Source: Gemmatimonadaceae bacterium
GTDB lineage: Bacteria; Gemmatimonadota; Gemmatimonadetes; Gemmatimonadales; Gemmatimonadaceae
Assembly: GCA_020853635.1 (NCBI GenBank)
Contig: JADYYN010000189.1
Coordinates: 1 to 35,347 of the forward strand
DNA: 35,347 bases
Direction: 5' to 3'
Shown here piece by piece: positions 4,648 to 34,170 of the stretch. A program made the position numbers and the translations under genes. The notes beneath the pieces are model-generated. The model worked only from the letters and a program-made list of their open reading frames with translations, searched no databases and had not been told where the DNA came from. How positions within the stretch are numbered: position 1 is the first letter of the stretch; each line of letters begins with the position of its first letter.

Positions 4648-7308
4648 GTGACGCAGTCAGTGTTCTTCTTCGGCAACGGAAAGGCCGAAGCGACGAAGGA
4701 CGATAAGGATCTCCTGGGCGGCAAGGGCGCGAACCTCGCCGAGATGACCAATCTCGGCGTCCCCGTGCCGCCGGGCTTCACCATCGCCTGCAATCTCTGC
4801 GACGCGTATCTCGCCACGCGCACGATCCCGGCGGGATTGCGCGACGAGGTGGAGCGCGCGCTCACACGGCTCGAAGAAGCCGCCGGCAAGCGCTTCGGCG
4901 ACCCGACCAATCCCCTGCTCGTCTCCGTGCGTTCCGGCGCGCGCGTCTCCATGCCTGGCATGATGGAGACCATCCTCAACCTCGGGCTCAACGATGAGAC
5001 CGTGGTGGGGCTGGCCAAGCTGAGCGGAAGCCCGCGCTTCGCGTACGACTCGTATCGTCGCTTGCTGCAGATGTACGGCGATGTGGTACTCGGCGTGCCG
5101 ATGCACGACTTCGAACATCTGCTCGCGGCCAAGCGACTGACGACGGGCGCGAAGACCGATGCCGAACTCCCGGCCGAAGCCCTGCAGACGCTGGTGCTCG
5201 AGTATCAGCAGCTGATCAAGAGCGCGACCGGCCAGCCTTTCCCGCATGACCCGCGGGCGCAACTCTGGGGCGCCACCGAAGCGGTGTGGAAGTCGTGGAC
5301 GCTCAAGAAGGCGGTCGACTATCGCCGAGTGAACGGCATCGCCGAGTCACCGGGCACGGCCGTGAACATCGTGTCGATGGTGTTCGGCAACCTCGGTGAG
5401 GACTCGGGCACCGGCGTCGCATTCACGCGCGACCCGTCGACGGGCGAGAAGATCTTCTACGGCGAATTCCTCGTGAACGCGCAAGGTGAGGACGTGGTGG
5501 CGGGCATCCGCACGCCGCAGCCCATCACCGAGATGGCGACCAAGCTGCCCGAGGCCTACGGCGACCTGCTGCGCACGCAGTCGCTGCTTGAGCGGCACTT
5601 TCGCGACATGCAGGACCTCGAGTTCACGGTGGAGCGCGGCAAGCTGTATCTGCTGCAGACGCGTATCGGCAAGCGCACGGCCGCTGCGGCGGTGCGTATC
5701 GCGCGTGACCTGGTGAACGAAGGACTGATCTCTCGCCCTGAAGCGCTGCAGCGTGTGCCCGCGAGTCAGCTCGACCAGCTGCTGCATCCGATCATCGATC
5801 CGTCATCCAAGCCGGAGGTCCTTTGCGTCGGTCTGCCGGCGAGCCCGGGTGCGGCGAGCGGCATGGCCGTGTTCGATGCGGACGAGGCGGAGTTCAAGGC
5901 GGCGCGTGGCGAATCGGTGATCCTGGTGCGCGACGAGACGACGCCGGAAGATTTCCACGGCATCGTCGCGGCGCGTGCGGTGCTCACGGCGCGCGGTGGC
6001 ATGACGAGTCACGCGGCCGTGGTGGCGCGTGGCATGGGCAAGTGCGCCGTGGTCGGTTGCGGTGCTATCCGCGTGGACGCGACGCACCGTCGCTTCACCG
6101 TGGGTGAGGTCGAGGTGCACGAGGGCCAGTGGCTCACGCTCGACGGCGGCACGGGTGAGGTCTATCTCGGCGACCTGCCGACCATGCCGAGCGAAGTGAT
6201 GCAGGTGAACGCCGGCACGCTGTCGCAGGAGGACGCGCCGGTGTATCGCGGCTTCGCCGAGCTGCTTGGCTGGGCAGATGCGCGTCGCCGTCTCAAGGTG
6301 CGCGCCAACGCCGACACGCCGCACGACGCGCGCGTCGCGCGCGGCTTCGGAGCCGAAGGCATCGGGCTCTGCCGCACCGAGCACATGTTCTTCGATGGCG
6401 ACCGCATCCACTCGATGCGCGAGATGATCGTCGCGCACGATGAAGGTGGTCGTCGGCGTGCACTCGCCAAGCTGCTTCCCATGCAGCGGGCGGACTTCGA
6501 GGGGATCTTCGAGGCGATGGACGGATACCCCGTCACCATCCGCCTGCTCGACCCGCCGCTGCACGAGTTCCTCCCGCACGGCGGCGAAGAGGCCAAGCTG
6601 TTGGCGCGTCGCGTGGGCGTCACGCGCCGCGAGATGATGCGCATCGTCGAGTCGCTGCGCGAGTCGAATCCGATGCTCGGGCATCGTGGCTGCCGATTGG
6701 GTGTGACGTACCCCGAGATCACCGAGATGCAGGCGCGGGCGATCTTCGAGGCGGCGTCGGCGATGGCGAAGCGCGGCGTGATCGTGCTCCCCGAGGTGAT
6801 GATCCCGCTGGTCTCCACCGTGAAGGAGTTCTCGCATCAGCGCGCGATCGTCGATCGCATGGCGGCGCAGGTGGCGAAGGAGTCGGGTACCAGTGTGAAG
6901 TACTTGGTGGGCACGATGATCGAGTTGCCGCGCGCCGCGCTGACCGCGCGCCAGATCGCGGGCGAGGCCGAGTTCTTCTCGTTCGGCACAAACGACTTGA
7001 CGCAGACGACGTTGGGATTGAGCCGAGACGACGCGGGGCGGTTCCTGCCGCTCTATGTGGAGCGCGGGATCTATCGCGACGACCCGTTCCAGGTGCTGGA
7101 CGAAGAGGGTGTGGGGCGGTTGATCGAGATGGCGACCAAGGACGGTCGCGCGGCGCGCGACGGTCTCAAGGTGGGCATCTGCGGCGAGCATGGTGGCGAG
7201 CCGCGTTCGGTGGCGTTCTGCCACCGCACGGGGCTGGACTATGTGAGCTGCTCGCCGTTCCGTGTGCCGATTGCGCGGTTGGCGGCGGCGCAGGCCGTGG
7301 GGAGCTGA
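4648..7308 (+). CDS. ppdK: Pyruvate, phosphate dikinase
   Basis: Reversibly interconverts pyruvate, ATP and phosphate with PEP, AMP and PPi in the cytoplasm. The 886 residues match the usual 870-900. In order: N-terminal ATP-grasp motifs (GGKGANLAEMTNLGVPVPPGF; VSVRSGARVSMPGMMETILN), the swivelling phosphohistidine domain with GGMTSHAAVVARGMG (phosphorylated His455, same number as in the Clostridium enzyme), and the C-terminal PEP/pyruvate barrel with GIGLCRTEHMFF, GTMIELPRAALTA, FFSFGTNDLTQTTLG and ICGEHGGEP (catalytic Cys845). The Thr before Ser-His455 is the position phosphorylated by PDRP regulators in other species. The GTG start at 4648 has a GGAGG SD at 4636-4640 and lies 30 bp after purF, so it is probably in the same transcript. 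The stop lies 4 bp from the stop of a convergent gene. Confidence 0.97.
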   Translation: MTQSVFFFGNGKAEATKDDKDLLGGKGANLAEMTNLGVPVPPGFTIACNLCDAYLATRTIPAGLRDEVERALTRLEEAAGKRFGDPTNPLLVSVRSGARVSMPGMMETILNLGLNDETVVGLAKLSGSPRFAYDSYRRLLQMYGDVVLGVPMHDFEHLLAAKRLTTGAKTDAELPAEALQTLVLEYQQLIKSATGQPFPHDPRAQLWGATEAVWKSWTLKKAVDYRRVNGIAESPGTAVNIVSMVFGNLGEDSGTGVAFTRDPSTGEKIFYGEFLVNAQGEDVVAGIRTPQPITEMATKLPEAYGDLLRTQSLLERHFRDMQDLEFTVERGKLYLLQTRIGKRTAAAAVRIARDLVNEGLISRPEALQRVPASQLDQLLHPIIDPSSKPEVLCVGLPASPGAASGMAVFDADEAEFKAARGESVILVRDETTPEDFHGIVAARAVLTARGGMTSHAAVVARGMGKCAVVGCGAIRVDATHRRFTVGEVEVHEGQWLTLDGGTGEVYLGDLPTMPSEVMQVNAGTLSQEDAPVYRGFAELLGWADARRRLKVRANADTPHDARVARGFGAEGIGLCRTEHMFFDGDRIHSMREMIVAHDEGGRRRALAKLLPMQRADFEGIFEAMDGYPVTIRLLDPPLHEFLPHGGEEAKLLARRVGVTRREMMRIVESLRESNPMLGHRGCRLGVTYPEITEMQARAIFEAASAMAKRGVIVLPEVMIPLVSTVKEFSHQRAIVDRMAAQVAKESGTSVKYLVGTMIELPRAALTARQIAGEAEFFSFGTNDLTQTTLGLSRDDAGRFLPLYVERGIYRDDPFQVLDEEGVGRLIEMATKDGRAARDGLKVGICGEHGGEPRSVAFCHRTGLDYVSCSPFRVPIARLAAAQAVGS

Positions 7309-7312
7309 GGGC

Positions 7313-7846
7313 TCAGGGCGCAGGCGGGACGTACGGCGTCATGCCGTACGGTTGCGTCGTATCGGGGAGCACGCGGAAGCTGACTCGCGTGCTCCCTGTT
7401 GCATCAAGGAACTTCACGAGACTGTCACGGCGCACGTAGCGGACGGACGCGCCGAGTGCGTCGTAGATGCGCGCATCGAGTGCCAGCATCCGGTCGGAGC
7501 ATCCGATGCGCGTGCCGCCCCCGTCGATGAATCGCAACGAATCGCCGCGAGCCTCGAAGCGTCCACCGATGCCGTTACACCCGACGTACCACCCGACTCG
7601 GACGGTGTCACGCCAGCGTTGATAGCTGAAGCGTCCGCCTCGGACGCCGGGCACGGTGTCTGGCATGAGCCCATCGACCTCAATCGCTCGCCACCACTCA
7701 ACGACGGCGAGGTCTTCGGAACGCCCGGCCAACCCGAACGTGCCGTCCCCTTGGCAGGCGGTCGCGGCGACGACAGGCAACGCGAGCGCCGCAGCCAGCG
7801 CCGCCCGTCGGACCCTTCGAGATGGAGCTGCACGTCTCGAGATCAT
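7313..7846 (-). CDS. META/HslJ-like lipoprotein
   Basis: Predicted exported protein of 177 residues. The N-terminus has two arginine pairs, a hydrophobic stretch and a lipobox-like ATAC ending at Cys31, suggesting an outer-membrane or periplasmic lipoprotein. The rest resembles a META domain: VEWWRAIEVDGLMP near the start, then VGWYVGCNGIGGRFEARGDSLRF and GTRIGCSDR, matching the GCN...G.Y....D.L.F...TTRM.C pattern of HslJ. In other bacteria such domains are linked to heat-shock or novobiocin resistance phenotypes; no specific role can be claimed here. I chose the ATG at 7846 because the longer frame adds 54 residues without signal-peptide character. It is convergent with ppdK with only 4 bp between stops, so no separate terminator fits. 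Confidence 0.72.
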   Translation of the reverse strand: MISRRAAPSRRVRRAALAAALALPVVAATACQGDGTFGLAGRSEDLAVVEWWRAIEVDGLMPDTVPGVRGGRFSYQRWRDTVRVGWYVGCNGIGGRFEARGDSLRFIDGGGTRIGCSDRMLALDARIYDALGASVRYVRRDSLVKFLDATGSTRVSFRVLPDTTQPYGMTPYVPPAP

Positions 7847-7871
7847 GGCATCGGATCGGGCGAGTGGTGAT

Positions 7872-8291
7872 CTACCCCTGATGGCGTCGCCGGTAGGCCA
7901 GCCACCCCAGCAGGCTCCCTCCTCCGAAGAATACCCCGCTGACCACGAGCGCTGCCACACGACCGAGCTCGTCGAGGTGGGCCGAGATCCACAGCGCGAG
8001 CGCCACACCGCCCAGCCCTACCGCGATGTCCAGCACGCGATTGATGAACTGTTCACGGACCCCTCGCGCATACTCGGCTATCTCCCAGAGGGTCATGAGC
8101 CCGAAGCCGACCATGTAGACCTGCGCGGTGGTCAGGCCGAAGAGCAGGTTCGAGAATCCACCGGCGACCCCGCCCATGAAATGGACCAGCATCCACAGGT
8201 CGAAATACCGACCTTCATCGAAGGTCGTGCTGATGGCGGGCGTCTTGGGCACATTTCCAATGTAGCTCGCGGGCGGCGGACAGACGGGCAC
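7872..8291 (-). CDS. Small integral membrane protein, VanZ/DUF2238-like topology
   Basis: Protein of 139 residues with about four membrane segments: LWMLVHFMGGVAGGFSNLLF, a segment around TAQVYMVGFGLMTLWEIAE, one around ILDIAVGLGGVALALWISA-like sequence, and VAALVVSGVFFGGGSLLGWL, ending in a basic tail. The order His-Phe, then Trp-Glu-x-x-Glu, then Asn-Arg-x-x-Asp in successive helices recalls VanZ-like and DUF2238 membrane proteins, but I cannot assign it firmly. The GTG at 8291 is the only start that keeps the region before the first helix; a later Met at the first helix is possible. It lies 25 bp upstream of the META lipoprotein on the same strand, so the two may be cotranscribed, and is divergent from the large propeller gene 102 bp away. 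Confidence 0.65.
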   Translation of the reverse strand: MPVCPPPASYIGNVPKTPAISTTFDEGRYFDLWMLVHFMGGVAGGFSNLLFGLTTAQVYMVGFGLMTLWEIAEYARGVREQFINRVLDIAVGLGGVALALWISAHLDELGRVAALVVSGVFFGGGSLLGWLAYRRRHQG

Positions 8292-8370
8292 ACCGAGCTC
8301 GGCGAGTCAAGGCTGGCGAGCGACCCGCGCCGGCGGCACGTTTCTCGTCGGTCCCCGCGGTCGGACCCGG

Positions 8371-8393
8371 CCCCCACCCCTCGCCCCTTCGCG
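8371..8393 (+). promoter_or_regulatory. C-rich leader without SD before the Asp-box propeller gene
   Basis: CCCCCACCC at 8371-8379 is followed by pyrimidine-rich sequence up to the ATG at 8394, with no purine-rich SD. TTTCTC lies at 8341-8346. A similar TTTCTC plus CCCCCACCC arrangement precedes the gene at 26701, and two CCCCCACCT copies precede the gene at 24514. The 102-bp divergent gap also holds GGTCC/GGACC arms around an 8-nt loop. Promoter elements could not be assigned. Confidence 0.4.
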
Positions 8394-11300
8394 ATGTCTT
8401 CCGTCTTGCGTCTTCCCAGCGTGCTCGCTCTCGCCGCGACCCTCGTCGCCACCTACGGTCCGGCGACGCTCCTCGCCCAGACCCCGTCGGTGGAACTGAC
8501 CGGCGGCCTGCAGCCGCGCACCATCGGCCCCGCAGCGATGTCCGGCCGGTTCGTCGACCTGGCGGTGATGGAAACGTCGCCGTCTGTGTTCTACGCGGCC
8601 GCGTCCACCGGAGGCCTTTGGAAGACCACGAACAACGGCAGCACGTGGACGGTGCACTTCACCAACGAGGGGACACACTCCATCGGCGCGATCGCGCTCA
8701 ACCAGCGCGACACCTCGATCATCTGGCTTGGCTCAGGCGAGCGCGCCAATCGCCAGAGTTCGTCGTGGGGCGACGGCGTGTACCTCTCGCGCGACGGTGG
8801 GCGCACGTGGAAGAACACCGGGCTCCGTGAGTCCGGACACATCGGCCGCATCGTCCTGCATCCCTCGCGACCCGAGGTCGCGTACGTGGCCGCGATGGGG
8901 CAACTCTGGAGCGCCAACAACGAGCGCGGCCTGTACCGCACCGACGACTTCGGTGCGACGTGGAAGCGCCTGCTCTACATCGATGACAACACCGGTGTCG
9001 TGGACGTGGCCATGGACCCGACCGACCCGAACATCCTCTACGCCGCCGCCTACCAGCGCCGTCGCACCGCATTCGGATTCAACGGCGGTGGTCCCGGCAG
9101 TGCGCTCTACAAGTCCACGGATGGTGGCACCACGTGGCGCAATATCACGAAGGGATTGCCGGCCGGTGACTACGGCCGCATCGGCATCGGCATCTTCCGC
9201 GGCGACCCGCGCATCGTGTATGTGAGTGTCGAGCAGGGCCAGCGGTACACCGCGTCGACCGCGTACGAGCAGCCAGAGGCCGGTCTCTACCGCTCCGACG
9301 ACCGCGGCGAGTCGTTCACACAGCAGAGCACGTGGAACCCGCGGCCGATGTACGGCAGTCAGGTCATCGTAGATCCCGTCGATCCGTGCCGGATCTACAT
9401 GATCAACTTCTTCTCGATGTCCACCGATTGCGGCAAGACGTCGCGGCAGATGCGACAGTCGCTGCACGGTGATGATCGCTTCATGTGGATCAACCCCGCG
9501 AACCCGTCGCATCTCATCAAGGCCGACGACGGCGGCATCGGCATCAGCTATGACCGCGCGGTGACGTGGCAGTTCATGGCGCACCTGCCGGTGAGCCAAT
9601 GGTATCGCGTGGCGGTGGACATGCAGAAGCCGTATCGCGTGTACGGTGGCCTGCAAGACAACGGCAGCTGGGCGGGCCCGTCGTCGGTGTATCGCAGCGA
9701 AGGCATCACCAACGCCGATTGGGTGAAGTGGGGCGGCGGCGACGGGTTCTTCAACGTCGTCGACACCAGCGACAACCGCACGCTCTACTCCTCCTCGCAG
9801 TTCCTCGGCCTGTCGCGGATCGACATGCGCACGGGCGAAGAACGCAGCATCCGTCCGGGCGATCCCACCGGTGCCATCGCTGCGCGCCGCAACTGGACCA
9901 CCTGGGGCGATCCCTCGGTGCCGCCGCAGCGCCTTGGCAACGCGATGGCGCCGGCCAACTGGGACGCGCCGATCATCATCTCGCACCACGACACCAAGAC
10001 GCTCTACACCGGCACCAATATCCTGTGGAAGAGCAGCGACCGCGGGAACACATGGACCGCGCTGGGTGACCGCACCACGGGCATCGACCGTCGCACGCTG
10101 CCCATCATGGGCGAACGTCCCACGGCGAGCACGCGCTCGCTCGACGACGGTGTGCCGTACTGGCCCTCGGTGAGCGCCATCGCGGAGTCACCGACGAAGA
10201 AGGGCACGCTTTGGATCGGCACCGACGACGGCAACCTGCAGCGCAGCACCGACGACGGACGCACCTGGACCGAACTCGCTGGCAGTCTCGCGGGGCTCCC
10301 GCGCGGGAGCTGGCTCAACGGCATCGAGCCCTCGCGTCACGTGGACGGCCGCGTGTACGTGGTCGCCAACAACTACCGCAGCGGCGATTTCGCCAACTAC
10401 GTCTACCGCACGGATGACAACGGCCGCACATGGACGCGGATCGACGGTGGGCTGCCGGCCAAGCGCGTGGCGCGCACGCTGCGCGAGGATCCGCGCAACG
10501 CGGACGTCCTCTACCTCGGCACCGAGCTCGGGTTGTTCTGGAGCAACGATCGCGGTGCGACCTGGGCGGAACTCCGCGGTGGAATGCCGCTGATGGCGTT
10601 CAACGACCTCGTGGTGCACCCGCGCGAGCATGACCTCGTGCTGGGCACGCACGCGCGCGGCATCTACATCCTCGATCACGCTCGCACGCTCGCTGAACTC
10701 ACGCCGCGCGTGACGGCTTCGGCGCTGCATGTCTTCTCTTCGCGGCCGGCCGAGCAGATCCGCTACCGGGACGCGATCGGACATGTGGGAGAGATCTTCT
10801 TCACCGGAGAGAACGCGCCGGCCGGTGGCATCATCGACTTCTGGTCGAAGACGCCGGGCGTGGCTCGGCTCGCCTTCAAGGACGCCGGTGGACGCACGGT
10901 GGCGGAGATGCAGATGAATGCACGCGCTGGTGTGAATCGCGCGGTGTGGAACCTCAGCTACTCCGAGACCGGTGCACCGGTGGAGCGTGCGCCGAGCGGG
11001 CCGTTCGTGCTGCCGGGCACGTACAAGGTGGAAGTGCGCGTCGGCGCGAACGCCGCCGCGGCAGCGAGCAGCTCCGTCGCCACAGGCTCCATCGAGGTCC
11101 GCGATGACCCGCGCATCGTAGTGGCTGCCGATGTGCGTCGCGCGTGGGACGCGGACATGCGGTCTCTGGCCACGTTGCGCGGCGAGAGCCGCGCGCTGGC
11201 GGGTCGTGCGAGCGCGGCACTGCGCGCGCTGGCGAACGATGCACCGGCCGCGCGGCGCGCCACGCTCGCGGAGTTCGCACGGCAAACGGGGGAACTGGCG

Positions 11301-11438
11301 TCCCGCGCGCAGCGGCTCTACGGGGATGTGAACGGTGCCATCGGCCCACTCACAGGTCTGCAGGCCGAGCAGAAGGCCTACTACACGCGGATGGTCGGCG
11401 AACTCACGCGCGAGATGGCGGCGGCAGACGTGCGCTGA
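8394..11438 (+). CDS. Secreted Asp-box (sortilin/VPS10-like, BNR) beta-propeller protein
   Basis: Large exported protein of 1014 residues. A clear Sec signal peptide covers about residues 1-29, ending in LLAQ. At least nine Asp boxes mark propeller blades: TTNNGSTW, SRDGGRTW, TDDFGATW, STDGGTTW, SDDRGESF, SSDRGNTW, STDDGRTW, TDDNGRTW and SNDRGATW. The number suggests two propellers or one ten-bladed VPS10-like ring. After about residue 780 there is a beta-rich region (IDFWSKTPGVARLAFKDAGG, then FVLPGTYKVEVRVG) like FlgD/Ig-type domains, then an Ala/Arg-rich helical end. Proteins like this are often labelled glycosyl hydrolase, but no catalytic residues can be assigned. I chose the ATG at 8394 because it begins the signal peptide; the longer open frame upstream is shadow. 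The 3' end overlaps the convergent kinase gene by 58 bp. Confidence 0.9.
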   Translation: MSSVLRLPSVLALAATLVATYGPATLLAQTPSVELTGGLQPRTIGPAAMSGRFVDLAVMETSPSVFYAAASTGGLWKTTNNGSTWTVHFTNEGTHSIGAIALNQRDTSIIWLGSGERANRQSSSWGDGVYLSRDGGRTWKNTGLRESGHIGRIVLHPSRPEVAYVAAMGQLWSANNERGLYRTDDFGATWKRLLYIDDNTGVVDVAMDPTDPNILYAAAYQRRRTAFGFNGGGPGSALYKSTDGGTTWRNITKGLPAGDYGRIGIGIFRGDPRIVYVSVEQGQRYTASTAYEQPEAGLYRSDDRGESFTQQSTWNPRPMYGSQVIVDPVDPCRIYMINFFSMSTDCGKTSRQMRQSLHGDDRFMWINPANPSHLIKADDGGIGISYDRAVTWQFMAHLPVSQWYRVAVDMQKPYRVYGGLQDNGSWAGPSSVYRSEGITNADWVKWGGGDGFFNVVDTSDNRTLYSSSQFLGLSRIDMRTGEERSIRPGDPTGAIAARRNWTTWGDPSVPPQRLGNAMAPANWDAPIIISHHDTKTLYTGTNILWKSSDRGNTWTALGDRTTGIDRRTLPIMGERPTASTRSLDDGVPYWPSVSAIAESPTKKGTLWIGTDDGNLQRSTDDGRTWTELAGSLAGLPRGSWLNGIEPSRHVDGRVYVVANNYRSGDFANYVYRTDDNGRTWTRIDGGLPAKRVARTLREDPRNADVLYLGTELGLFWSNDRGATWAELRGGMPLMAFNDLVVHPREHDLVLGTHARGIYILDHARTLAELTPRVTASALHVFSSRPAEQIRYRDAIGHVGEIFFTGENAPAGGIIDFWSKTPGVARLAFKDAGGRTVAEMQMNARAGVNRAVWNLSYSETGAPVERAPSGPFVLPGTYKVEVRVGANAAAAASSSVATGSIEVRDDPRIVVAADVRRAWDADMRSLATLRGESRALAGRASAALRALANDAPAARRATLAEFARQTGELASRAQRLYGDVNGAIGPLTGLQAEQKAYYTRMVGELTREMAAADVR

Positions 11439-13222
11439 GGTGGGAGCGGGTAGGGGGCGGCGTCGACGTTGATCTTCGTCGTCCCCACCTTCCCGTCGAC
11501 GCGCGCGGCGACGAGCACCTGACCCGATTTGAGTGCGGTGAGCACGCCGTCTACCGAGATCGCGGCGATGCCGGGGTCCGAGACGTCCCAGCGAACGGGG
11601 TACCCTTCCAAAGGGTGCCCCTTCGTGTTCTCGGGCGTCGCCGCAAGCCGCATGCGCTCACCCATCGTCAGTCGCGGCGCCGGCGCGGTGATGCTCACGG
11701 CGGCGATCATCGCATGCGTCACGCGCAGCGTAAGCGTCGACTGCGCGCCGCCGGTCCGCGCGGTGATCTCGCAGGTGCCCTCGGAGCGGACGTGCAACTT
11801 CCCTGCTCCGTCCACGGCGGCGATGCTCGGGGCCGAGCTGCTCCACGCCACAAGCCGTGGATCCGCGATCAGTCCCGCCGCCTCACCCGTGTTCACCGAG
11901 AGCGGAATGCGGTCGCCGACCTCCACGGTGGTCAGACGCGGCATGATGGCGAGTTGACGCACCCCGGCACGCGTGATGGTGACGGTCAGCGACGCGCGAG
12001 GCGCGGCGTCGCGCGGCACGTCCGCGTCGCTGTCCACCACGGTCGCGGTGATCGTCGCGCGTCCCGTACCCACCGCGGTAACGCGTCCGCCCGCGGAGAC
12101 TCTCGCGATCGTGGGCGCTGACGACTCCCACACCACTCCTGCGTGCGGCACCGCGGCCCCCTTGTCATCGCGCACGTCTGGGACGAGATCGAGCGTGTCG
12201 TCGATCGTCATGGTCCCGGCGTGCGTGTGCAGCGCGATGGAGAGTTCGCTGAGCGACGGGAGCACCGCCGTGGGCGCCGAGGGGACGCGTGTCGCGGGCA
12301 GGGCCGCCGACGCGCGTACGTCGTGCGAACTCGTGGCGAGCCGCACCAGCGAGGCGCGTACCGGGTCGTTGGGGCCAAGCGTGAGCTCCGGCAACGCGGC
12401 AATGGCGTCGGACACGGAGGCGAATCGTTCGTCGGCCTGACGCGCGAGCATCCCGTGCACGGTGTGCGCGATGGTACCCGCCGCGTCCGGGCGTTTCGCA
12501 TCGACCGGCACGAAGGGCTCGTGCACCATCTTCCATACGATCTGCATGAGTGAGTCGCCGACGAAGGGCGGCGCACCCGTGAGCAGCTCGTACGCGACCA
12601 CGCCGAGTGCGTATTGATCGGCCGCGCCAGTGAGCGGTTCGGCGGCGCACTGCTCGGGGCTCATGTAGGACGGCGTGCCGACGGTCTGTCCGATCTGTGT
12701 CTTGCCCGGCTGTTCACTGAGGCGTGCAATGCCGAAGTCCGCCACGACGGCGTCGCCGTGTTCATCGAGCAGGATGTTTGCGGGTTTGATGTCGCGGTGG
12801 ATCACCCCGCGGCGGTGCGCGGCGTCGAGGGCCGCACCCACCTGCGTGAGGATGGCGCGGACCTGCGGCACGCTCAGCGGGCCGTGCTGCGCGAGGATCT
12901 CGTCGAGCGCGCGCCCCGCGACGTACTTCATGACGAAGAACAGCAGGTCGCCGGCGCGATCGACCGCGTAGATGGGGATGATGTGCGGATGGGACAGCGC
13001 GGCGGCCACGCGCGCCTCCTGCACGAAGCGCTCGGCCATGCCTTCCACGGCCATGAGCTGCGGGGCCATGACCTTGATGGCGACCGGACGGTCGAGCGCA
13101 CACTCGCGCGCGAGGAAGACCGTGGCCATGCCGCCGCGGCCCAACTCGTGGGAGATGTCGTAGCGCCCCGCCGTGGCGACCCGGAGGCGCTCGAGCAGGT
13201 CGCTGGGTGCAGCTGTGGTCAC
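11381..13222 (-). CDS. Hanks-type Ser/Thr kinase fused to three Ig-like (Big_2) domains
   Basis: Protein of 613 residues. The kinase domain spans about residues 20-275: glycine loop LGRGGMATV, VAIK with Lys50, HRDIKPANIL with catalytic Asp144, DFGIAR with Asp162, and the GTPSYMSPEQ activation segment, so it should be active. After a 55-residue linker come three Ig-like repeats at about 331-427, 428-510 and 511-590, each with the Big_2 pattern WxSSAPxIAxV...G.V.A...G.A.I.A (VVWESSAPTIARV, VAWSSSAPSIAAV, VRWDVSDPGIAAI). I see no hydrophobic segment long enough for a membrane helix and no signal peptide, so the Ig domains should be cytoplasmic, which is odd. The GTG start at 13222 has a GGAGGG SD. 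A secreted six-bladed propeller gene lies 69 bp upstream on the same strand. Confidence 0.92.
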   Translation of the reverse strand: MTTAAPSDLLERLRVATAGRYDISHELGRGGMATVFLARECALDRPVAIKVMAPQLMAVEGMAERFVQEARVAAALSHPHIIPIYAVDRAGDLLFFVMKYVAGRALDEILAQHGPLSVPQVRAILTQVGAALDAAHRRGVIHRDIKPANILLDEHGDAVVADFGIARLSEQPGKTQIGQTVGTPSYMSPEQCAAEPLTGAADQYALGVVAYELLTGAPPFVGDSLMQIVWKMVHEPFVPVDAKRPDAAGTIAHTVHGMLARQADERFASVSDAIAALPELTLGPNDPVRASLVRLATSSHDVRASAALPATRVPSAPTAVLPSLSELSIALHTHAGTMTIDDTLDLVPDVRDDKGAAVPHAGVVWESSAPTIARVSAGGRVTAVGTGRATITATVVDSDADVPRDAAPRASLTVTITRAGVRQLAIMPRLTTVEVGDRIPLSVNTGEAAGLIADPRLVAWSSSAPSIAAVDGAGKLHVRSEGTCEITARTGGAQSTLTLRVTHAMIAAVSITAPAPRLTMGERMRLAATPENTKGHPLEGYPVRWDVSDPGIAAISVDGVLTALKSGQVLVAARVDGKVGTTKINVDAAPYPLPPQRTSAAAISRVSSPTIRV

Positions 13223-13291
13223 GGGGAACCCTCCGAACTTGGTATCGGCGGGAGGGCGACCGCACTTGAGACCTGCGGGCGATTCACCCGT

Positions 13292-14428
13292 TCAGCGTCG
13301 GGGCACCATGGGCCAGCCGCGGAGGGTCAGCGTGAAGGTCCGCACGCGCGGGATGTCGTCGTCGCTCCACGAATCGTAGACACCGATCGTCGCATCATCG
13401 AGGACGTAGGTCGCCGGGAGATCGAAGCGCTGCCGACTGATCACGCGCCATGTCTTTGTGTCGATGACCTCGATCATGGTGTCGTAATAGCGGTCGCGTC
13501 GCAGAATCTCACTCGCGCTGCGTCCTTCGATGATGCGTTCGGGGCCGAGTGCGCGGGCCCAGTTCGGATCTTCGATCAACGCGATCACCCACAGCAGTCC
13601 GTTCGCATCCTCCCACACATCCTGCAGCTCGGTACTCGGCTTCTCGTGCGGCGAGGGCGCGCGATCGCCCTCCCCCGCGGTGAACCACGACGAATGCCCC
13701 ACGTAGTTCCGCAGCGGCCGACCGTCGGCGTCCCATCGGTGGATGACGTAGGCTCCGAACCCGGCAACGGACCATAGCCCGCCGTCTCGCGCCGGGTGCG
13801 GCTGCTGCCAGCGTATGAATCCGAATCGCGACACGAGCTGATCGGCGGTGCCCATCGACCCGATCCGTTTTCCATCGCGGCCATACCGCTGCAGTGCGGC
13901 GCTGCGCCCGTCCGCCCCCGCGATGCCGCCCGAGAGCGCGATGCCGCCGCCGAATGCGCTGGCGTAGGGCGCGTTGATCGGCGGATCGAGACGCACTTCG
14001 CGGACGACGCCGCTCGTCGGTCTGACGACAGACAACCGAGCGTTCACGACATCCACGAGGTAGACGGAGTCGCCTTGGACGAATCCGGCGCGCACGAACT
14101 GGAACTCGCGCGGACCTGCACCGAATCGTCCGACGGTCCGCACGTATCGGCCACGGGCATCGAAGAAGCGAGGCGCCTGGTCCTCTCGGCCGCCACCCGC
14201 CAGCACGAGGGATCCGGATGGCATACGAAGGACCACGTTGGGGTAGCCGCCCAGGATCCCCGGGCCGTCGTCGTCACCGATGGAGATCGAGGGCTTCACC
14301 TCGATACGACATCGTGGGCAGGCGACGTTCGGTGAGAGATGCGTGACCGGGATCGGCGACTGCGTCTCGCCGATCGTGCTTCCGAGCGCGAGGAGTACCA
14401 AGACGACGAGAGCGGTAGAAGATCGCAT
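13292..14428 (-). CDS. Secreted six-bladed beta-propeller protein
   Basis: Protein of 378 residues with an N-terminal signal peptide (about residues 1-22, STALVVLVLLALGSTIGE then TQ). The mature part carries the signature VGRFGAGPREFQFVRAG (around residue 100), the G-x-G-x-GP-x-EF motif of NHL/6-bladed propellers of the BF3886 kind, with further Asp- and Gly-rich strand repeats such as GDSVYLVDVVNARLSVV. A CPRC pair lies near residues 37-40 of the precursor. No enzyme motif is visible; such proteins are taken to be periplasmic or surface ligand-binding scaffolds. A near-perfect inverted repeat abuts the ATG at 14428. The Ig-domain kinase gene follows 69 bp downstream. The same type of gene precedes the second kinase at the end of the window. 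Confidence 0.85.
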   Translation of the reverse strand: MRSSTALVVLVLLALGSTIGETQSPIPVTHLSPNVACPRCRIEVKPSISIGDDDGPGILGGYPNVVLRMPSGSLVLAGGGREDQAPRFFDARGRYVRTVGRFGAGPREFQFVRAGFVQGDSVYLVDVVNARLSVVRPTSGVVREVRLDPPINAPYASAFGGGIALSGGIAGADGRSAALQRYGRDGKRIGSMGTADQLVSRFGFIRWQQPHPARDGGLWSVAGFGAYVIHRWDADGRPLRNYVGHSSWFTAGEGDRAPSPHEKPSTELQDVWEDANGLLWVIALIEDPNWARALGPERIIEGRSASEILRRDRYYDTMIEVIDTKTWRVISRQRFDLPATYVLDDATIGVYDSWSDDDIPRVRTFTLTLRGWPMVPRR

Positions 14429-32595: not shown

Positions 32596-34170
32596 CTACC
32601 GACGGCGCTCCAGCGCATCCACCCGATCGCGCAGCGCGGCGACCTCGCCAGCGAGCGAGACGTCGGTATCCACTCGCTTCGAGGACGCAGCCGTGACGCG
32701 TGTCGAACTGGCTGCACCATCAGCTGCCGAGGCGCGCGGACCGCGGATCGAGAGCAGCATCCGACCGAGCCGCCCCAGCCAGAAGAAGCTGAACAAGTGT
32801 TCCGCGACCGTCCGGCGGAACGGGCTGGAAACGAGGACCGTGATCGCCGCGGCCAGCCCGAGCAACGACGCGAAGAACATGATGGTCTGCGCCGTGCCTT
32901 GTATCTCACCACGCACGGACACTTCGTCGCCGAACCGGATGGTGACGATGCGGCTCGCCAACCAGATCGCGAGCCCCGCCGAGATCCACATTCGCGTGGT
33001 ACGCCGCTTGACGAGGGTGACGTCCGTCGCACGTCGCGCGCGCTCCTCGTCGCGCTCTGCGAGGGTGAGCGCGAGCAGCCGTTGGATCTCGGCCACATCG
33101 AACCCCATGCCACGCAAACGTCCGACCTCGCGCAACGCCGTCACGAGACCCACCCAGAACATCGCGAAGACGATCACGCCGATCGCCAGCATGTTGCCGT
33201 TGCCGTTGCTGAGGACCATGCCGGTCCCATTGAGCAGCAGCGCGAATGCCACGACCGCCCGGGTGCTCGCGGTCGAGAGCTCCGGCGCGAGCAATCGTAT
33301 CGCGACGGGGATCTCCGGCGTGGCGAGCTGTGTCGCGTCGAGCGCTTCGACCAGGGCTTCGGCGGTCTGGAAACGGGCCGCGGGTTCTTTGGCGCAGCAG
33401 GTGTCGATGACGTCGCTGAGGGCCTTCGGCAGATCGGTCCGGAACGTCGTGACCGAGGGCACCGCTTCGGTGAGTTGCCGCACGAGGATCCGCTGCGTGC
33501 TTTCTCCCATCATCGCCGTGCGACCGGTGGTCGCGAACCACGCGACCAAGCCGAGCGAGTAGAGATCCGAGCGCCCGTCGACGGTGTCGCCGGTCGCCTG
33601 CTCCGGACTCATGTACTCCGGCGTCCCCACCACTTCACCGATGCGTGTGAGCCCTGCAGCCTCGTTGACCGGCGTGATCGCCCGCGCGATGCCGAAATCC
33701 ATGACCAGCGCACGACCGGTCGCGCGTTCGATCATGATGTTGTCGGGCTTGATGTCGCGGTGCACGACGCCACGTCCGTGCGCGTAGGCGAGCGCGTACC
33801 CGACGTCCTGCAGCAATCGCACCGTGTCTCGGCGCGAGAGCGGGCCGTCGCGGGTGACGCGCGCCGAGAGCGATTCGCCTTCGACGAATCCCATGGCGAA
33901 CGCCAGCACCTCGTCCGACTCCTCGACCGCGAACACCGGGACGATGTTCGGGTGTGAGAACCCAGCGGCGAGTCGGGTTTCGCGCAGGAAGCGTTCGCGG
34001 AGGTCGGCGACGGATGCGAACTCCGGCGGCAACACCTTGAGGGCGACGGGACGGTCGAGCCGTCGATCGCGTGCGAGGTACACGGTCCCCATGCCACCCC
34101 GACCGAGTTCGCGCTCGATCAGATAGGTCTCACCTAGAGTGCGACTGACTGCGGCGACGTCGGCGTGCAT
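32596..34170 (-). CDS. Hanks-type Ser/Thr kinase with four membrane helices and C-terminal coiled coil
   Basis: Protein of 524 residues. The kinase domain covers about residues 16-280: LGRGGMGTVYLA, VALK with Lys45, VHRDIKPDNIM with catalytic Asp139, DFGIAR with Asp158 and GTPEYMSPEQ, so it is predicted active. After that come four hydrophobic helices at about 304-321, 327-346, 393-411 and 428-448. The loop between helices 2 and 3 (about 347-392) is charged and helical (EIQRLLALTLAERDEERARR). The C-terminal end LAGEVAALRDRVDALERRR looks like a short coiled coil for dimerisation. There is no extracellular sensor domain, so the input may come through the membrane region or a partner. The start is ATG 34170. 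A six-bladed propeller gene ends 90 bp upstream on the same strand, mirroring the arrangement at 11381-14428. Confidence 0.93.
   Translation of the reverse strand: MHADVAAVSRTLGETYLIERELGRGGMGTVYLARDRRLDRPVALKVLPPEFASVADLRERFLRETRLAAGFSHPNIVPVFAVEESDEVLAFAMGFVEGESLSARVTRDGPLSRRDTVRLLQDVGYALAYAHGRGVVHRDIKPDNIMIERATGRALVMDFGIARAITPVNEAAGLTRIGEVVGTPEYMSPEQATGDTVDGRSDLYSLGLVAWFATTGRTAMMGESTQRILVRQLTEAVPSVTTFRTDLPKALSDVIDTCCAKEPAARFQTAEALVEALDATQLATPEIPVAIRLLAPELSTASTRAVVAFALLLNGTGMVLSNGNGNMLAIGVIVFAMFWVGLVTALREVGRLRGMGFDVAEIQRLLALTLAERDEERARRATDVTLVKRRTTRMWISAGLAIWLASRIVTIRFGDEVSVRGEIQGTAQTIMFFASLLGLAAAITVLVSSPFRRTVAEHLFSFFWLGRLGRMLLSIRGPRASAADGAASSTRVTAASSKRVDTDVSLAGEVAALRDRVDALERRR

Follow-up and report, generated by a model that had tools for sequence, protein, structure and literature searches.

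Big_2 immunoglobulin-like (Ig) domains are usually taken as a sign of secreted or surface proteins. A gene from a Gemmatimonadaceae bacterium, lying within a 35,347-nucleotide stretch of one contig (hereafter the window), therefore raises a question of location. Its product was read in a preliminary description as a Ser/Thr kinase with three Ig-like domains, no membrane helix and no signal peptide. We asked whether this architecture is real, on which side of the membrane the Ig domains lie, and what they might do there. The features of the gene are as follows.

11381-13222, reverse strand: whole gene, 613 amino acids, with a GTG start and the stop codon at 11381-11383; kinase and three Big_2 domains
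13229..13234, reverse strand: probable ribosome-binding site GGAGGG, six bases 5' of the GTG, read from the sequence
12383..13168, reverse strand: Hanks-type kinase domain, residues 19-280 (Pfam Pkinase 21-235; PknB matches 18-276/283; AlphaFold2 and Foldseek)
12245..12382, reverse strand: linker, residues 281-326; a short helix at 287-297, then disorder, with no transmembrane (TM) segment; 34.0% mean orthologue identity
12014..12244, reverse strand: Ig-like domain 1 (Ig1, Big_2), residues 327-403, placed by the Big_2 profile of relatives
11720..11962, reverse strand: Ig-like domain 2 (Ig2, Big_2), residues 421-501, placed by the same profile
11465..11707, reverse strand: Ig-like domain 3 (Ig3, Big_2), residues 506-586, placed by the same profile; the most conserved Ig domain
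11384..11458, reverse strand: C-terminal tail, residues 589-613, with low model confidence and likeness to the orthologue of genome G069 only

Domain content and predicted structure

A Pfam scan of the 613-residue protein identified a protein kinase domain (PF00069, E 1.3e-48). Residues K50, E69, HRD 142-144, N149, DFG 162-164, E190, D202 and R266 all belong to the positions that are 90% invariant in a 20-row alignment. The catalytic lysine, alpha-C glutamate, HRD and DFG motifs and APE-type glutamate by which Hanks-type kinases are recognized are all present, and the catalytic residues are intact. The domain is closest in both sequence and structure to mycobacterial PknB, the top Foldseek match being 5u94 (35% identity, TMt 0.90). 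No zinc ribbon N-terminal to the kinase was detected by the Pfam scan, and PASTA was not among the 11 Pfam families found at E<=1.

The Big_2 family (PF02368) matched in three stretches with an E-value of 6.7e-21 and 74.5 bits against a cut-off of 22.8. Domain borders were taken from a Big_2 profile built in this analysis on relatives, to which each of the three Ig domains scored 67-81 bits. Ig-type families at E<=1 comprised Big_2, Big-like, Big_1 and the NUP210 Ig model; I-set Ig was not found at that threshold. The signature WxSSAPxIAxV that had been attributed to the repeats holds in part: W-x-S-S-A-P is exact in Ig1 (W365) and Ig2 (W460), and Ig3 reads WDVSDPGIAAI (W545).

A full-length AlphaFold2 model built from the 20-row alignment (mean pLDDT 86.5) shows a kinase domain, a linker and three beta-sandwiches. 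Its pTM was 0.52, and the mutual placement of the domains is not fixed by the model. In the linker, an 11-residue helix (287-297) is followed by a disordered stretch at 301-319 with pLDDT below 50. When modelled alone, the tail reached a pLDDT of 90.2. Its best structural match was a Big fragment of LigA (8gyr; Z 13.4, 165 residues aligned, rmsd 7.5), and a Big_2-CBM56 structure (7quz) aligned over 85 residues with Z 12.7 and rmsd 2.1.

Absence of a membrane helix and signal peptide

The preliminary description would have been overturned by a TM segment in the linker at about residues 275-330. None was found there or elsewhere in the protein. The best 19-residue Kyte-Doolittle window scored 1.28, below the usual cut of 1.6. 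As that cut overlooked clear Trp-rich TM segments in relatives (L025, for example) and so undercounted them, we used instead an insertion-energy-like scale made for this analysis, on which lower values are more TM-like and 0.9 is the TM cut. The best window of the query scored +2.19, and most TM-bearing relatives fell below 0.9. The scale was applied to 104 kinases whose tails have at least 150 residues. The query and the four other full-length orthologues scored 2.07 to 4.14, and all five sit among the eight least TM-like proteins. The others above 2 were two kinases of L087, plus L133, which belongs to a second TM-less group considered below. As a control, only 1 of 80 kinase domains fell under the cut. 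In 156 of 200 shuffled versions of the query tail the score was at or below that of the real tail, which is therefore less TM-like than its composition predicts.

An overlooked TM segment in the linker was thus ruled out by the Kyte-Doolittle scale, the insertion-energy scale and the AlphaFold2 model, which places only the 11-residue helix and disorder where one was sought. A signal peptide missed through a wrong start was likewise ruled out, as the 23 in-frame codons from the GTG back to the preceding stop encode no hydrophobic leader. The Ig domains are likely to be cytoplasmic together with the kinase domain, as the preliminary description had proposed.

Orthologues and conservation

The genus set comprised 17 genomes, including that of the query (G000). 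Any match at E<=1e-70 was found in 10 of these, and orthologues were present in six. Five genomes (G000, G069, G059, G065 and G023) encode the full-length protein of a kinase and three Ig domains; in G064 the orthologue is in two halves, each at a contig end. A TM segment is absent from all five full-length proteins, and the four other than the query are 56-72% identical to it.

The G064 tail (L114), whose frame begins at the contig edge, has one Kyte-Doolittle window that reaches 1.96, where Ig1 begins. This candidate TM segment was discounted, since the window contains an arginine and aligns with the first Ig1 strand of the other orthologues. Apparent in-frame stops in the alignment rows of G065 (one TGA) and G023 (two TAG) proved to be gene-end stops where the alignment overran the end, and both frames are complete.

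These orthologues bear directly on whether the architecture arose from an assembly or gene-call error in which a TM segment was lost by frameshift or contig truncation. The host genome is a 4.17 Mb assembly in 295 contigs, estimated at 83.66% complete, where such errors could occur. However, the same complete layout recurs in G069, G059, G065 and G023, no extra Big_2-bearing frame lies next to the orthologues, and the 3' end of the query gene overlaps a convergent gene. A TM-removing frameshift is excluded by the agreement of the five full-length frames. For the architecture, an artefact is refuted by the orthologues, and the chance that one is nonetheless at work is negligible.

Mean pairwise identity among the five proteins was 75.3% in the kinase domain and 34.0% in the linker. 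Within the tail it rose from 44.0% in Ig1 (326-418) to 50.6% in Ig2 (419-502) and 65.6% in Ig3 (503-588). Invariant columns in the six available tails followed the same order (15 of 93, 23 of 84 and 35 of 86), with N532, G535 and H536, in a loop around residues 532-536, among the conserved residues of Ig3. The outermost domain, Ig3, is the most constrained of the three. This climb in identity argues that the tail has been retained for use, although strong identity in Ig3 could come from folding constraint alone.

Kinase-Ig proteins across Gemmatimonadota

We surveyed 395 Gemmatimonadota genomes, 66 of which gave a match, and typed the full frames of all 80 kinase matches at E<=1e-84. Big_2 domains were present on 47 of the 80. 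By layout, 16 of these carried Ig only between the kinase and the TM segment, 13 on both sides, nine only beyond the TM segment, and nine had no TM segment; three candidates were scored per genome with a query bearing kinase-adjacent Ig, which skews the proportions towards that layout and keeps the numbers low. The remainder were 32 kinases with a TM segment and no Ig, and one cut frame. In total, 70 of the 80 kinases had a TM segment. One of the nine entries with Ig and no TM segment (L226) ends at a contig edge and was not counted as TM-less. The eight complete TM-less proteins are the five orthologues and three members of the second group.

An earlier survey of 133 kinases, gathered by separate searches and partly overlapping this set, found 86 with a TM segment and no Ig, and 20 with Ig: five on both sides, five on the inner side only, four on the outer side only and six with no TM segment. 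In that motif-limited scan, the records behind the 20 Ig-bearing kinases included none named for another phylum. The other long kinases on C19 of the host genome, considered as candidate kinase-Ig proteins, proved to lack Ig domains. Four proteins of the main survey (L178, L179, L180 and L183) flank a single TM segment with three Ig domains on either side, a mirror-like arrangement.

The preliminary description implied that the Ig domains of such kinases would normally lie outside and that a TM segment was missing from the linker. This did not hold for the nearest kinase relatives, which run kinase, Ig and then TM. Among TM-bearing kinase-Ig proteins, 29 of 38 have Ig between the kinase and the TM segment. 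The cytoplasmic-side Ig row is thus a common layout in Gemmatimonadota, not an exceptional one. The search for homologues with and without a TM segment, which had been suggested as a check, returned both the TM-less orthologues and these TM-bearing relatives.

The linker points in the same direction. From kinase to Ig1 it spans 28-42 residues in the five orthologues; in relatives it spans 24-66 residues if Ig precedes the TM segment and 105-196 if all Ig domains follow it. In the 85-row kinase tree, the clade of the query (six rows, support 100/100) joins four proteins (L020, L134, L127 and L017), all of kinase-Ig-TM(-Ig) layout, at 91/82 (not starred). The support for this apparent sister relation is good but not decisive. 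Given the layout of the nearest relatives and the similar linker length, the query looks like the cytoplasmic, inner half of a kinase-Ig-TM(-Ig) kinase and not like a receptor whose linker once held a TM segment.

The Ig sequences themselves were scored against a pre-TM profile (77 domains) and a post-TM profile (55 domains). In the five orthologues, Ig3 leans towards the pre-TM profile by 4.5 to 6.8 bits, Ig1 leans towards the post-TM profile in four of the five by 3.3 to 8.5 bits, and Ig2 is neutral to slightly post-TM. As Ig sequences do not separate pre-TM from post-TM domains, descent of the query's Ig domains from the pre-TM set cannot be claimed.

A second TM-less group

A kinase with three Ig domains and no TM segment was also found in 4 of 11 genomes of another genus, g13 (L148, L149, L150 and L151/L152), in one case split across two contigs. 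These proteins carry an N-terminal cysteine pattern that by eye resembles a zinc ribbon. Their linker of 103-113 residues is as long as in kinases with Ig beyond the TM segment, which suggests a route different from that of the query clade. In the kinase tree the g13 group branches away from the query clade, although a single TM-less clade was not rejected (p-AU 0.251).

Relation to known systems

The PASTA-type Hanks kinases (PknB, PrkC and StkP) resemble the query in having a PknB-like catalytic domain and repeated beta-rich C-terminal domains. In these kinases a TM segment follows the kinase and the repeats lie outside (PMC6213207, in part). The query differs in having Big_2 in place of PASTA and no TM segment between kinase and repeats. 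Closer to it are the Gemmatimonadota kinase-Ig-TM and kinase-Ig-TM-Ig proteins (for example L178-L181, L183, L217 and L219), which share the kinase-adjacent Big_2 domains and the linker length. Those proteins go on to a TM segment and often to further outer Ig domains, whereas the query stops after Ig3. A zinc ribbon precedes the kinase in the relatives scanned with Pfam (L012, L013, L015, L016, L017 and L020) and is lacking in the query.

Soluble bacterial Hanks kinases have precedents in Pkn5, SpkC and PknG, listed in a table of PMC6213207. Like the query they have no membrane anchor, and the sections of that source that deal with them mention no Ig-like row. The same source describes both membrane and cytoplasmic bacterial kinases and nowhere uses the term 'Ig-like'. 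A survey of kinase architectures in Planctomycetota (PMC11032199) locates the most frequent accessory domains largely to the periplasm, and none of the terms 'Ig-like', 'Big_2' and 'immunoglobulin' appears in it. A presumed intracellular bacterial inhibitor with an Ig fold is described in PMC3901451 (in part), where the authors question its intracellular nature. In titles and abstract openings of the open-licence literature, we found no description of Big_2 on a bacterial Ser/Thr kinase, which is weak evidence that none exists.

Leptospira LigA and the Big_2-CBM56 proteins are surface or secreted proteins, as their structure titles partly indicate. They have the Ig fold in common with the query tail but contain no kinase. 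Among eukaryotes, titin, twitchin and smooth-muscle MLCK are cytoplasmic kinases with I-set Ig domains and mechanical regulation. They share with the query a kinase and Ig folds in the cytoplasm, with Ig domains of another family; the likeness is one of layout, not kinship.

Neighbourhood of the gene

In the stretches read around each orthologue, no neighbouring partner gene recurs in every case. The 3' ends of the kinase gene and of a convergent BNR/sortilin-like gene (7656-11438, forward strand) overlap by 58 bases (11381-11438). The C-terminal tail of the kinase falls in this overlap and is common to G069 only, whose convergent neighbour is the same. A pyruvate phosphate dikinase gene (4648-7308) is more than 90% identical in G069 and G065; in these two genomes and in G000 it lies near the kinase gene and points towards it, and it does not occur in the sequence read around the orthologues of G059, G023 and G064 (two contigs). 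In G000, a gene at 13292-14428, located behind the start of the kinase gene, encodes an N-terminus that looks like a leader and weakly matches a family of 6-bladed propellers. No match to it turned up in G069, where the rest of the locus is collinear.

Elsewhere in the window, a single frame at 16300-18366 matches glucosamine-6-phosphate isomerase and then the PIG-L deacetylase family, and is likely a fused enzyme. A second Ser/Thr kinase (32596-34170) has two Kyte-Doolittle TM windows and no Ig.

Possible roles of the Ig row

Hanks kinases in general are activated by activation-loop phosphorylation, often upon dimerization. We infer from the sequence that the query is a cytosolic Hanks-type kinase. 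Its row of three Big_2 domains, carried on a flexible linker, would act as an intracellular protein-protein interaction arm. The protein would descend from, or share a common ancestor with, the kinase-Ig-TM(-Ig) membrane kinases, and would correspond to their cytoplasmic half minus the TM segment and outer domains. The Ig row would stay in the cytoplasm beside the catalytic domain, and the distal Ig3 may dock a partner, either a substrate or another Ig-type kinase. Docking would concentrate or pair the kinase domain, which would be turned on by autophosphorylation of its activation loop as in the kinase family in general. We give this whole scheme about an even chance of being right. A scaffold or substrate-recruiting role had been put forward in the preliminary description; it is plausible and consistent with how strongly the distal Ig3 is conserved.

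The main rival to a docking arm is that the Ig row regulates its own kinase and recruits no substrate. It would either bring two copies together through contacts between Ig domains or keep the active site covered until ligand binding. The best structural matches include Big_2-CBM56 constructs whose titles call them 'dimeric' and 'octameric'. Bacillus YabT, which is activated via its DNA-binding juxtamembrane region, provides a precedent for a cytoplasmic accessory region that switches a Hanks kinase (PMC6333020, in part). On the other hand, the poor conservation of the linker and its disorder in the model give no hint of a fixed contact between kinase and Ig row, and the pTM of the full-length model leaves the placement of the domains unfixed. 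We consider such regulation a serious possibility, though a somewhat unlikely one.

Decay offers another explanation, with the query a receptor that lost its anchor and kept a functionless Ig tail. Most close relatives do keep a TM segment in both surveys, but the TM-less form has been retained in four further full-length orthologues as divergent as those described above, Ig3 is nearly as conserved as the kinase, and all frames are open; we regard decay as improbable. It is more doubtful still, and in our estimate very improbable, that some unusual route, or a partner, carries the Ig tail into the periplasm. Big_2 is known mostly from secreted and surface proteins, the structural neighbours of the tail included, which would favour an outside location. 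Against it, the protein has neither signal peptide nor TM segment, the kinase requires cytoplasmic ATP, and pre-TM Ig domains are common among its relatives.

Significance

Gemmatimonadota have few cultured members. Tentatively, and with rather less confidence than the scheme for the query itself, we suggest that the phylum has a large kinase family with intracellular Ig rows, often mirrored (kinase-3Ig-TM-3Ig), in which soluble kinase-Ig proteins may have arisen on at least two occasions, each by its own route. In the query genus all parts beyond the inner Ig row would have been lost (short linker), and in g13 the TM segment between kinase and Ig (long linker). In bacteria, these proteins would parallel the muscle kinases whose Ig domains work in the cytoplasm, and their Ig row would be the docking arm.

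Annotation by Big_2 would put these tails outside the cell; here the same domain lies on the kinase's side in many membrane proteins and also occurs in soluble kinases. The kinase-Ig set permits asking whether one type of Ig-like domain serves both sides of the membrane. If the docking arm is real, the soluble form would be a handy route to the binding partners and phosphorylation targets of these kinases.
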